Below, piece after piece: positions 1 to 56,366 of a DNA stretch of 64,000 nucleotides. The translations under genes and the position numbers were made by a program. This DNA comes from Planctomycetaceae bacterium. GTDB lineage: Bacteria; Planctomycetota; Planctomycetia; Pirellulales; Pirellulaceae. The notes beneath the pieces were generated by a model. The model was not told where the DNA came from. It saw nothing but the letters and a program-made list of their open reading frames with translations, and did not search any database. The stretch is taken from positions 31,093 through 95,092 of the forward strand of contig PBNZ01000043.1 of the NCBI GenBank assembly GCA_002723275.1, read 5' to 3'. Positions within the stretch are counted from its first letter, which is position 1; every line of letters begins with the position of its first letter.

Positions 1-1025
1 TTGATAAACCCGAATTCGACCGCGTCATTCTGACCAAACAGACCGATCCGACCACTGTCCATGGACTCCGGATTGATAATCCCCATCATCGTGAACTCAG
101 CAACGCCACTCATCAAGGAATCAGATACCTGGACAGCATCATTGCGACCGTCGAACTTGGTCGCCGAATTAGAATCATCAAATTCAAACAGAACGTCGGC
201 AGAACCCGGTCCTGAGGTATTTCGCGTCGGTCGATTGTCATACTCACCGTTCAGGTTTTCACCTGCGGAACCACTGTTGGCGGCAACCGTTCCGTCTCGC
301 TCTTCAAATCTCCAGTAGCCTACAGGATCAAGACTCAAAATCCCCTCAACCATCGGCGGCAATTCGGCATCTCCCGTATCGTAGCCAATCCCGGTCGTAC
401 CCGATGACCACGTCGCATCGTTAAAGTCGGATCGTGACCAATCGTCTCGCAACAAATTTGTCGCAGGAACTCGATACTTGAGATTACTGCCTGGCTCCAA
501 CAAGATTGTCGACTTGACGTCCGGCGAAATCCCGAACGCAACATCCGAAACCTGAGGAGGATAGGTCGGTGAGAATTGCTGAACCACCGTTTCGCCGTCG
601 GGCGCAACCAAAGCGAGATATTCGCCGTCCCCATCAAGCTTAAAGTTCGTGTGCAGTTCAGAGCCTGCCAGATCCCGATCTTTCCCCGACGCAAATACAA
701 CCTCGAATCCACCCGGATCCATCGACAACTCAGGAAATCGCCATTGGGTTAAATCCCCAGGATCATCTGTGATCCAGAAACCCTTCAGGTTCGCCACCTC
801 GTCACCTGAGTTATAGATTTCAATCCAGTCGACATAGTCACCGTCTTCATCGGCTAAGGTCGATTCGTTGATCGCCATGAATTCGCTGATGATCGGTGCA
901 CCATCAAGCAACTGACGACTTTCCAAAGACTCTATCTTTGCTCGACGGCGAACTTTTCGCAAACGCTGCTTGCGAGATGATGGCGTCTCACTCAAGGACG
1001 ACGACCTAGTCGGATAAAAATTCAC
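1..1025 (-). CDS. Surface protein with LEPR-XLL leader, lamin-tail and LamG-like domains (3' end outside window)
   Basis: This open frame enters from the left edge on the minus strand and has no stop inside the window, so only about 341 N-terminal residues are visible. A GTG at 1025 preceded by AAGGAG six bases upstream is the best start. The N-terminus is basic and carries SLESRQLLDGA (about residues 30-40), the LEPR-XLL motif of large planctomycete surface proteins. A lamin-tail-type domain follows (ISEFMAINESTLADEDGDY, then DWIEIYNSG), and after about residue 240 a LamG/concanavalin-like domain starts (LDPVGYWRFEE). By family knowledge these proteins are exported and often very long, with a CotH-like or dockerin-like part further on, but that part cannot be seen here. 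The domain calls are firm; the role is unknown. Confidence 0.8.
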   Translation of the reverse strand, partial: MNFYPTRSSSLSETPSSRKQRLRKVRRRAKIESLESRQLLDGAPIISEFMAINESTLADEDGDYVDWIEIYNSGDEVANLKGFWITDDPGDLTQWRFPELSMDPGGFEVVFASGKDRDLAGSELHTNFKLDGDGEYLALVAPDGETVVQQFSPTYPPQVSDVAFGISPDVKSTILLEPGSNLKYRVPATNLLRDDWSRSDFNDATWSSGTTGIGYDTGDAELPPMVEGILSLDPVGYWRFEERDGTVAANSGSAGENLNGEYDNRPTRNTSGPGSADVLFEFDDSNSATKFDGRNDAVQVSDSLMSGVAEFTMMGIINPESMDSGRIGLFGQNDAVEFGFI

Positions 1026-1502
1026 ATTACACTCCTTAGGCTCAACTCAGTCTTCTCTAGATGATCAAAGCATGCGGACAAAAAGGTAGTTTCGGTTAGG
1101 CATCATCGATCAGACAATCAGTCTCGAAATCGATCCCTTTGAAGCACCAAGAGGGCTGGTACATTTCGACCGAAATGAATGGTCCATGAACAACGACGAA
1201 TGTCGGGGATGAAGTCAACGGTCATTCGCAAAAGGGCCGGTGTTGTTGCAGCCATTTATTCCCGCACATCAGACCGCATAGGTCAAGCTATTTCTGCGAG
1301 ACACTCGCCGATTTTCGGACAGAAACAACTTCCGCACAAAGCACCACGAGCGTCCGATTTGAACGTGGTCGCCATTGTTGATCGATCCGGTTGTCCAATC
1401 CAACGGAATCGATGCGTCCGACCGTTCTCAGCCAAGATCATTCATTCCGTTGAACTAAATCTCCACGAGGTACCGCAATATTGTTCCCCAATATTGCCCC
1501 CC

Positions 1503-1541
1503 AAAAAATGAGGCCTCTCGGTGTAACCACCGAGAGACCTC
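1503..1541 (-). terminator. Rho-independent terminator of the candidate small RNA
   Basis: On the minus strand a 14-base stem (1541-1528 with 1523-1510, one G-T pair) closes a TAAC-position tetraloop and is followed after one base by six T (1508-1503). No protein gene ends just upstream on this strand, which supports an RNA gene. Confidence 0.8.
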
Positions 1542-1732
1542 TATGTCGTGTCCATTGTTGCTTGCTCGTAGAAATCTTAACCAGAGGACACCACACGCTA
1601 CTGCTTGCGTCGGACCGAACCAGCGGCATCTTGAATTCCGCAATTCAAGCCTGCCTCACGGCAGTCACCCCGACAATCGTATAACCATCTCCGTTCGACG
1701 CACGAACGAAAGCGATTCGTCTGTTCGACAAT
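1503..1732 (-). ncRNA. Candidate stand-alone small RNA, about 230 nt, no known family recognised
   Basis: Read on the minus strand, a sigma70-like promoter (1739-1767) is followed by a stretch without a credible gene. It holds two adjacent perfect hairpins: CTGCC-GTGA-GGCAG (1664-1651, GNRA-type loop) and, one base later, CTTGAATT-GCGG-AATTCAAG (1649-1630). It ends at a strong rho-independent terminator (1541-1503). This is the layout of an independent sRNA gene. I looked for features of 6S RNA, SRP RNA, RNase P RNA and tmRNA and found none. A very short peptide frame (ATG GTT ATA ... TGA) lies just before the first hairpin with a GGAG directly upstream, so a leader peptide cannot be excluded. 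Existence of the transcript is inferred; the promoter, hairpins and terminator are seen. Confidence 0.5.
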
Positions 1733-1738
1733 GACGGT

Positions 1739-1767
1739 AGTTATCGCTCAGTGCAGGTCATTGTCAA
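1739..1767 (-). promoter_or_regulatory. Sigma70-like promoter for the candidate small RNA
   Basis: The minus strand carries a perfect TTGACA at 1767-1762, a 17-base spacer, and ATAACT at 1744-1739 as a -10-like box. The predicted start is near 1732. The -35 match and spacing are ideal; the -10 is weak. Confidence 0.5.
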
Positions 1768-2336
1768 CCATTATTTAATACGCGCTCAGCAAAAATCGAT
1801 CGATGTCCTTGCCCTGTGTTTCATTCCGTTATCCCTCGGATAGTGAAAACTCTGACGCCGCATGGGGATGACGATGGCCGCCCAGTCGGGTTAGAACACA
1901 ACTCTTTCATGATGATTCCGAGTAGAGCTGCTTCGATCTCTCCATAGCCCTCAGATTCGATCACAATCCGATGGTCTTTGGCTTTCGAATCAGCCTCGCT
2001 ATCGCGAGCCTGGATACCTGACGTACGAACGGTGATTCACGAACGGCTTAGCGGCGACTCAAAACGGATTCCTCGCATCGCCGGTGGGAAGCGTCTCGCA
2101 AGATACTTGAAACCACATCGGAAGAAAGATTTTGCCAGCGTTAGATCGCCTGGTGCCGCATCGCTTTACGCCAGATCATCTAAAATGCCTGGCGTTGCAA
2201 CCGACGAAATCCAAAGGCGCAAGCCAAAATACGAGGGGGCCATCTTCGTTCAATCTGGGAAGTGGGATACAATCAAGGCCATATTCAAGTTCAGAGTACA
2301 AGCCCATCACGGCGGGATGTTGTTGAAGGAAAAACC

Positions 2337-3674: not shown

Positions 3675-3711
3675 AAAAAAAAAACTGCTGCGTCCGAGCC
3701 GGACGCAGCAG
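3675..3711 (-). terminator. Terminator of the DUF1559 gene
   Basis: On the minus strand an 11-bp perfect stem, CTGCTGCGTCC (3711-3701) with GGACGCAGCAG (3695-3685), encloses a five-base loop and is followed by a run of ten T. It lies about 33 bases after the DUF1559 stop. Confidence 0.92.
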
Positions 3712-3743
3712 TCCTCATTTAACTCAACTCAGATTCAAAACCC

Positions 3744-4880
3744 TTACAGTGCGTCCTGATCAATAGGTTCGCCACCAGCTCGGGTGAGGATTCGGAACCA
3801 GAGGTTGGGATCAACGGTTTCGGACAAGGCTTGAGTGTGTCCATCGGCGTACCCGACGATAATCACACCACCACCATGGTCACTACTCGGACCCCAGTCA
3901 CGAATACCACCATCGATCGTTTCGGCAAACCAAGGTGCCGGATCAGGTCGATCAGGATTCTGAGGATCAACATTCAAGTAGGACTTACCGTAATTCAAAG
4001 CGGTTCGGTTGGCAGGATTTTGGTCGATGCCCATGTAACCATCAGACTGGATGGTCGGAACCAGCTTGTTATCCGGAAGGAAACCAATCGTCCAAGCGGA
4101 TTGACCCGAGTACCAGGAGGAGAAAAGTTCATGCTTCGACTCAGCAATGATCGCCTGCTTAGAGGCACCATCGGTGAGTTCGCGGAACTTCAAACCACGA
4201 AACTTCGGATCGATTTTCGAGATCATGACACCGCCGAGGGTTGGATCATGATCGTCAACCGTCTTCGAGGTATTCGTACCACGCGTTGCAGAAGCGAGGG
4301 CAACATAGTTACCACCGGCAACTTCTACATCGGTCGGCAGATTGTAGTTGGTTTCGGCATTCGAGATCGTGTCGCCAGCAAACGACGGACATCGCAAGAA
4401 ACTAACTTGGGTTGCTGCAAAGTGAGTCGAGGGATCAGCAGGGATCGAACGCATGTTTTCATTGAATGCGCAGACCTTGAAGTTCTGACTTTGACGCGAG
4501 ATTTGGTCATAGAGGTTGTCCTCTTCCAACATAGGAAGAATCCTTACAATCCAGCTATAGCCATCAGCTCGCCAGTTCTGTCGTCCACGATCGGTGACGT
4601 ACAGGTCGCCGGGAGTACCCGGTTCAACGCGGCCGAGGTTACTGCGATTGCCGGGACGCGGCGGTGCAGAGTTGGCCAAAGGGAAGCGTTGAAAAGCGGC
4701 CTCATAGTTAACGCACGCCAAAGCAAGCTGGCGAGTTTGGTTGACGCAGCCATTCCGGCGAGCCGCTTCACGAGCAGCGTTGATAGCCGGTAGCAGCAAC
4801 AACACGAGGATGGCAATGATTGCAATCACCACCAACAGTTCGACGAGGGTAAATCCTCGCCTGCGACTACGCGTCGTCAT
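3744..4880 (-). CDS. DUF1559 prepilin-like protein
   Basis: A 378-residue protein. The ATG at 4880 is chosen because GGAGG lies six bases upstream; an upstream in-frame start (4955) adds 25 residues that do not fit a prepilin leader. The N-terminus is a class III signal: basic MTTRSRRRG, then FTLVELLVVIAIIAIL, a type IV pilin-type hydrophobic helix with processing expected after the glycine. It continues with LLPAINAAREAARR, the hallmark of the DUF1559/SBP_bac_10 family that is expanded in planctomycetes. The C-terminus has the H-X9-DG motif (DHGGGVIIVGYADG). Such proteins are thought to be exported by a type II/IV pilus-like apparatus as pseudopilins; the function is unproven. It is alone, with its own terminator. 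Confidence 0.95.
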   Translation of the reverse strand: MTTRSRRRGFTLVELLVVIAIIAILVLLLLPAINAAREAARRNGCVNQTRQLALACVNYEAAFQRFPLANSAPPRPGNRSNLGRVEPGTPGDLYVTDRGRQNWRADGYSWIVRILPMLEEDNLYDQISRQSQNFKVCAFNENMRSIPADPSTHFAATQVSFLRCPSFAGDTISNAETNYNLPTDVEVAGGNYVALASATRGTNTSKTVDDHDPTLGGVMISKIDPKFRGLKFRELTDGASKQAIIAESKHELFSSWYSGQSAWTIGFLPDNKLVPTIQSDGYMGIDQNPANRTALNYGKSYLNVDPQNPDRPDPAPWFAETIDGGIRDWGPSSDHGGGVIIVGYADGHTQALSETVDPNLWFRILTRAGGEPIDQDAL

Positions 4881-5235
4881 AGGGAACCTCCGTAACAAAA
4901 CAAAATAGAAATGAAAAAATGAGACAACGAGGGATCTCGTTAAGCCCTTTCCCAAATTTAAACAGAGCGATCGCCCCGTTTAAAGAATTCGGGAATTCAC
5001 CGTAATTTGATCCGGAATTCGGTCAGTCGTCAAGAGTTGGGGCTTTCCATCCATCGATGTTTCTCGTTAAGTTTTCTCGATAAGTTTCGACCATTGATCA
5101 AGATATGAAAACTTACGCCCCTTCTTAACGAGCTGTACTTTATTTTGACGCAATGAGTCATCGTGTGCAAATTATTTCACGTCGCAACCGAACCTTCCTG
5201 GGCACCCAACACACCCTCAATCTGAGGGGGCCAAT
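4881..5235. promoter_or_regulatory. Divergent intergenic region with repeated CTCGTTAAG motif
   Basis: This 355-bp region separates the divergently transcribed DUF1559 gene and the CCA/poly(A) polymerase gene. The nonamer CTCGTTAAG occurs at 4936-4944 and 5063-5071, with a one-mismatch copy CTCGATAAG at 5076-5084 and an inverted exact copy CTTAACGAG at 5124-5132. Four sites in under 200 bp look like operators for an unidentified regulator. I could not place a confident -35/-10 pair. Confidence 0.4.
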
Positions 5236-56335: not shown

Positions 56336-56366
56336 AAAAACGGAGCGTTTTTACGCTCCGTTTTTT
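56336..56366 (+). terminator. Terminator of the small PEP-CTERM gene
   Basis: CGGAGCG (56341-56347) and CGCTCCG (56354-56360) form a 7-bp stem, extended by A/T pairs from the five A before it, with a six-base loop; six T (56361-56366) follow. Confidence 0.93.

Follow-up and report, generated by a model that had tools for sequence, protein, structure and literature searches.

A candidate noncoding transcription unit ending at an intrinsic terminator in a planctomycete intergenic gap

The intergenic gap and its terminator

The window analysed here, a stretch of 64 kb (bases 31093-95092 of contig 43) from the 6.8-Mb draft genome of a Planctomycetaceae bacterium, includes a 1.3-kb intergenic gap (1026-2336) that carries no coding signal in the host and has no relative elsewhere. 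One flank of the gap is formed by a minus-strand gene that begins with GTG at 1025; its product of 2143 aa contains a lamin-tail domain and weakly matches the planctomycete extracellular motif. The other flank is a plus-strand gene for a TerB-like protein, for which ATG 2337 is the best start because the protein of a sister species aligns from there. No Pfam matches were obtained for the ORFs of the gap, and no transposon-like repeats were found, as the gap has no second copy in the host genome and contains only weak inverted repeats. The names USP, FG-GAP, CotH and PAC2 used for genes below come from reading the sequences and not from a family search. Further into the window, a minus-strand gene at 3744-4955 encodes a product with a prepilin-like N-terminus, and a very strong intrinsic terminator of 17 pairs (3680-3716) lies directly behind it.

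Sequence, folding and genome calibration identified an intrinsic terminator on the minus strand of the gap, consisting of a stem-loop (1541-1510) with 14 pairs and a 4-nt loop, followed by ATTTTTT to position 1503. The stem includes 13 Watson-Crick pairs and one G-U pair, the hairpin alone folds at -27.7 kcal/mol, and its pairs have a probability of about 1.0 in the predicted ensemble. The signal is readable as a terminator on the minus strand only, and no minus-strand ORF of at least 30 codons ends ahead of it.

For calibration, 384 kb of host DNA (320 kb of stretches together with the window) was scanned for similar structures. Stems of at least 12 pairs with a T tail were found six times, and the same class occurred 1, 0, 0 and 1 times in first-order simulations with the dinucleotide make-up of the host. 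Lowering the limit to at least 10 pairs gave 12 stems with a T tail, nine of them intergenic. As judged by a simple gene caller, four of the nine lie no more than 150 nt behind a gene on the same strand, and a recheck of the five that were flagged, made to find genes missed by the caller, revealed in three cases a same-strand open frame of at least 110 codons that ends 40-68 nt upstream. Of the remaining two, one (L046) is ambiguous and the other, the terminator at 1541-1510, has no such frame. The intergenic stems are thus nearly all located behind open frames, and such hairpins therefore mark transcript ends in the host. As no frame lies ahead of the hairpin at 1541-1510, it would mark the end of a transcript without a protein gene. 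Well above chance, this terminator is the firmest feature of the element, and it provides the intrinsic terminator of its own by which an intergenic small RNA (sRNA) gene is recognised.

The ambiguous case (L046 11862-11889) is a strong minus-strand terminator of 11 pairs and seven T, situated in an intergenic stretch with a plus-strand gene on either side, and is possibly a second orphan transcript end.

Promoter-like boxes, coding content and predicted fold

On the same strand, a -35-like hexamer TTGACA that matches at six of six positions (1767-1762) is followed at a distance of 17 nt by a -10-like hexamer GATAAC (1745-1740) that matches at four of six and lacks the final T; both boxes were read in the sequence. 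The TTGACA, the 17-base spacing, two stems between the boxes and the terminator, and the 14-bp terminator stem with six T had been described in an earlier note on this DNA, and all of them are present where that note placed them. TTGACA alone was counted 138 times on both strands of the 384 kb of host DNA. In combination with a -10 box that matches at four or more of six positions and lies 16-18 nt away it was found in 11 cases in 768 kb of strand, which corresponds to a chance of 0.36% per given 250-nt stretch. The promoter that an sRNA gene should have of its own would be represented here by TTGACA-17-GATAAC, a pair absent from a strict promoter scan, which did not list GATAAC because the conserved last T is missing. 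With its poor -10 box, the promoter-like pair is weaker evidence than the terminator, and its position suggests a transcript start near 1733.

Signals of this kind accompany known RNA genes of the host. The SRP RNA has TTGACG-17-TACAAA upstream, and a similar terminator of 11 bp (TTCTTTTT) is found at the end of the tmRNA; hence, the host uses such signals for RNA genes.

A 14-nt inverted repeat with 86% identity (GTCATTGTC/GACAATGAC) is located at 1722-1770, and its arms span the -35 box and the predicted transcript start. This repeat could be an operator; inverted repeats of equal quality also occur elsewhere in the gap.

The coincidence of the two signals bears on the possibility that both, the terminator-like hairpin as well as the promoter-like boxes, are fortuitous. 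The element shows no conservation (see below), and up to one such hairpin per 384 kb arises in the simulations, as a chance origin would allow. However, a chance origin is very improbable for a 14-pair hairpin that is followed by the appropriate T tail, does not lie in a gene and has an uncommon promoter-like pair upstream of it.

Together, the promoter-like boxes and the terminator would delimit a noncoding minus-strand transcript of about 190-230 nt (1733-1503). Inside the element, no complete minus-strand ORF of at least 30 codons was found. The complete ORFs present have 28, 16 and 12 codons, and the longest of these begins with TTG and has no Shine-Dalgarno sequence. The view that no protein gene fits between the signals is borne out by this 28-codon maximum and by the lack of a Pfam match, and the element is noncoding, as is required of an intergenic sRNA gene. 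A gene for a small protein is accordingly the least probable of the readings considered: beyond the existence of the three short complete ORFs nothing positive was found for it, whereas the ORFs are not preceded by a Shine-Dalgarno sequence, the longer frames (62-63 aa) extend across the terminator, and there is no match in Pfam.

The predicted fold of the element was compared with that of shuffled sequences. With the terminator included the folding z score is -5.0, whereas without it the value is -1.27 and the stability does not exceed that of the shuffles; unusual stability is therefore confined to the terminator. The two stems upstream of the terminator had been put forward as tandem tetraloop hairpins. 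Both stems are present in the sequence, and the 8-bp hairpin CTTGAATT-GCGG-AATTCAAG (1649-1630) is predicted to form, with pair probabilities of 0.96-1.0, and to cap a more extended hairpin at about 1674-1610. The 5-bp hairpin CTGCC-GTGA-GGCAG (1664-1651), however, hardly forms (~1% of the predicted ensemble), because the longer hairpin around the CTTGAATT stem uses its letters and is 3.2 kcal/mol better, and a designed structure of two adjacent hairpins is not supported. Perfect 5-bp tetraloop stems number 93 in the 64-kb window, and a stem of this type is ordinary for it; perfect tetraloop stems of at least 8 bp are less common than the 5-bp kind, with five in the 64 kb. Another perfect stem of the window, with 13 bp and a loop of 4 nt, is located at 56336-56365.

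The sister species and the search for relatives

The locus was compared with that of one sister species of the same genus (G001). The neighbouring genes are kept there: identity is 63% for the TerB-like protein and 79% for the PAC2-like gene, and the downstream LTD/CotH-type gene can be aligned. Between the TerB and LTD genes, the sister species has a universal-stress-protein-like (USP-like) gene and a 1242-aa gene in place of the gap, and neither a terminator nor any such element was found at that place. No remnants of the USP and FG-GAP genes of the sister species were found in the gap of the host. Given the two protein genes at this place in the sister species, the gap appears to be a recently remodelled junction. 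The interval from the TerB-like to the PAC2-like gene in the sister species (L070 1148-17903) includes the USP-like gene, the 1242-aa gene and two tandem giant genes of the LTD/CotH type; in the host (window 1-2336) it includes one giant gene and the 1.3-kb gap.

The earlier note had named loss of the hairpins beside conserved flanking genes as evidence against its proposal. This is the situation in the one sister species, and it refutes conservation of the element but not its transcription.

The comparison also bears on whether the element is a regulatory leader. The suggestion of a leader whose downstream gene has been lost finds no support, as the 2143-aa gene is present on the same strand and the sister ortholog of that gene lacks such a leader. 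As a 5' leader or an attenuator for the gene that starts at GTG 1025, the element would terminate transcription conditionally at 1541-1510 and permit read-through into the gene. The common strand, the lack of an intervening gene and a terminator ~485 nt ahead of the start codon are consistent with such an arrangement. Nevertheless, this distance is long, a competing anti-terminator is not predicted and the terminator pairs have probabilities of ~1.0, no Rfam riboswitch was detected at the locus, and in the sister species the gene orthologous to the downstream one lacks such a leader and lies directly behind another gene. A known aptamer or an anti-terminator before a conserved gene, by which a riboswitch or attenuator would be recognised, was not found, and a leader function is considered improbable.

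Searches for relatives were extended beyond the genus. DNA searches in which the element and the complete 1.3-kb gap served as queries gave only self-matches among 60 relatives, 241 genomes of the family and 392 genomes of the phylum. When matches with E up to 1 were considered in the family search, many matches of 17-50 nt at chance level were obtained, and the best of them (7e-4) falls short of significance for a search of 241 genomes. Phage and plasmid records gave no match in a DNA search, pattern scans of viral and genome contigs were likewise negative, and a protein scan of genome contigs with the TerB-like neighbour as the query produced no confirmed case. A covariance search, which the earlier note had recommended for finding planctomycete relatives, was carried out with a model built from the single sequence and its predicted fold; in 149 family genomes it recovered the element itself and one chance match (G123). 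The latter, with E 0.003 over 149 genomes, was attributed to chance because it lies inside a same-strand ORF of 601 codons. Hence, with no relative at the level of sequence or structure, the proposal of a new planctomycete RNA family is not upheld. Conservation of the sequence, or covariation in its structure, is usual among relatives of an sRNA, though not required; neither was found here, and the element would be species- or lineage-restricted, as far as this can be tested.

These data are the background for the main rival interpretation, in which the terminator is real but the RNA has no function. The hairpin would stop stray or divergent transcription before the 2143-aa lamin-tail/CotH-type gene, and the transcript, if there is any, would be a by-product. 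The lack of conservation and of unusual stability in the RNA body favours an insulating role, as does the location of the terminator in a recently remodelled junction that is occupied by two protein genes in the sister species. The perfect -35 box with a fair -10 box at 17 nt close upstream speaks against such a role, as this combination is expected by chance in only 0.36% of 250-nt stretches. On balance, an insulating terminator is regarded as a real though minority possibility.

Interpretation and comparison with known RNAs

The sequence features of the locus give good support to an orphan transcription unit that would end at a genuine terminator. The chances appear about even that the element is a noncoding, lineage-restricted minus-strand transcription unit of ~190-230 nt that would be, if functional, an ordinary trans-acting sRNA. 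In this preferred interpretation, transcription by RNA polymerase and the primary sigma factor would begin near 1733 and end in the hairpin with its T run (1541-1503), and the RNA, if functional, would pair with mRNAs as a trans-acting small RNA without Hfq. Transcription, the RNA ends and any function are predicted here from the letters of the locus. That the unit is a functional, species-specific and Hfq-independent regulatory RNA, born in a gap whose place is taken by two protein genes in the sister species, is a tentative and rather doubtful proposal. A rough scan for pairing with 235 translation starts detected nothing beyond the level of a shuffled RNA and did not indicate the neighbouring genes as targets.

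If transcribed, the element would add one more sRNA for a poorly covered phylum; a review tally of 2022 lists 8 sRNAs in the whole PVC group versus 345 in Proteobacteria (PMC9029176). In that case it would also be a modest example of a young RNA gene, confined as it is to one species and to a host without an Hfq match.

The locus has no Rfam match at the gathering score, and the sub-threshold matches are far below the cut-off. The known RNAs of the host are encoded elsewhere: RNase P RNA (300.9 bits), SRP RNA (46.1 bits) and tmRNA (156.1 bits) are all on other contigs. A 6S-like RNA was found at G000:C29:137283-137482 (L002 1501-1700), covering the full model length with 36.2 bits against a cut-off of 46.4. 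A run of seven T is present just past its end, and planctomycete 6S RNA may be under-scored by the Rfam model. With own copies elsewhere and no family-model match at the locus, identity of the element with 6S, RNase P, SRP RNA or tmRNA was ruled out, in agreement with the earlier note. The element is similar to 6S RNA (RF00013) in length and in the one long hairpin of its fold, but differs in having no Rfam match at the locus, and the better 6S candidate is that at C29. The best sub-threshold Rfam match on the strand is the 23S-methyl motif (RF01065), whose terminator-like half fits. This match was rejected as chance, since it scores 18.9 bits against a cut-off of 50 with E 4.9 and the terminator hairpin alone aligns well.

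No match to Hfq (PF17209) was found in the host genome, which is 96.6% complete, in a search whose controls were positive. The host-encoded Hfq on which an Hfq-dependent sRNA relies was therefore not detected, and the RNA as a regulator would act without it. Terminators of Hfq-binding sRNAs have been described, in one account, with seven or more T (PMC5558911). In comparison with trans-encoded intergenic bacterial sRNAs, the candidate differs in its T run of six, in a host that has no Hfq match and in being known here from sequence alone, on which basis it is of an ordinary kind. It resembles these sRNAs in its orphan promoter-like and terminator signals, its predicted length of 190-230 nt and its noncoding character.
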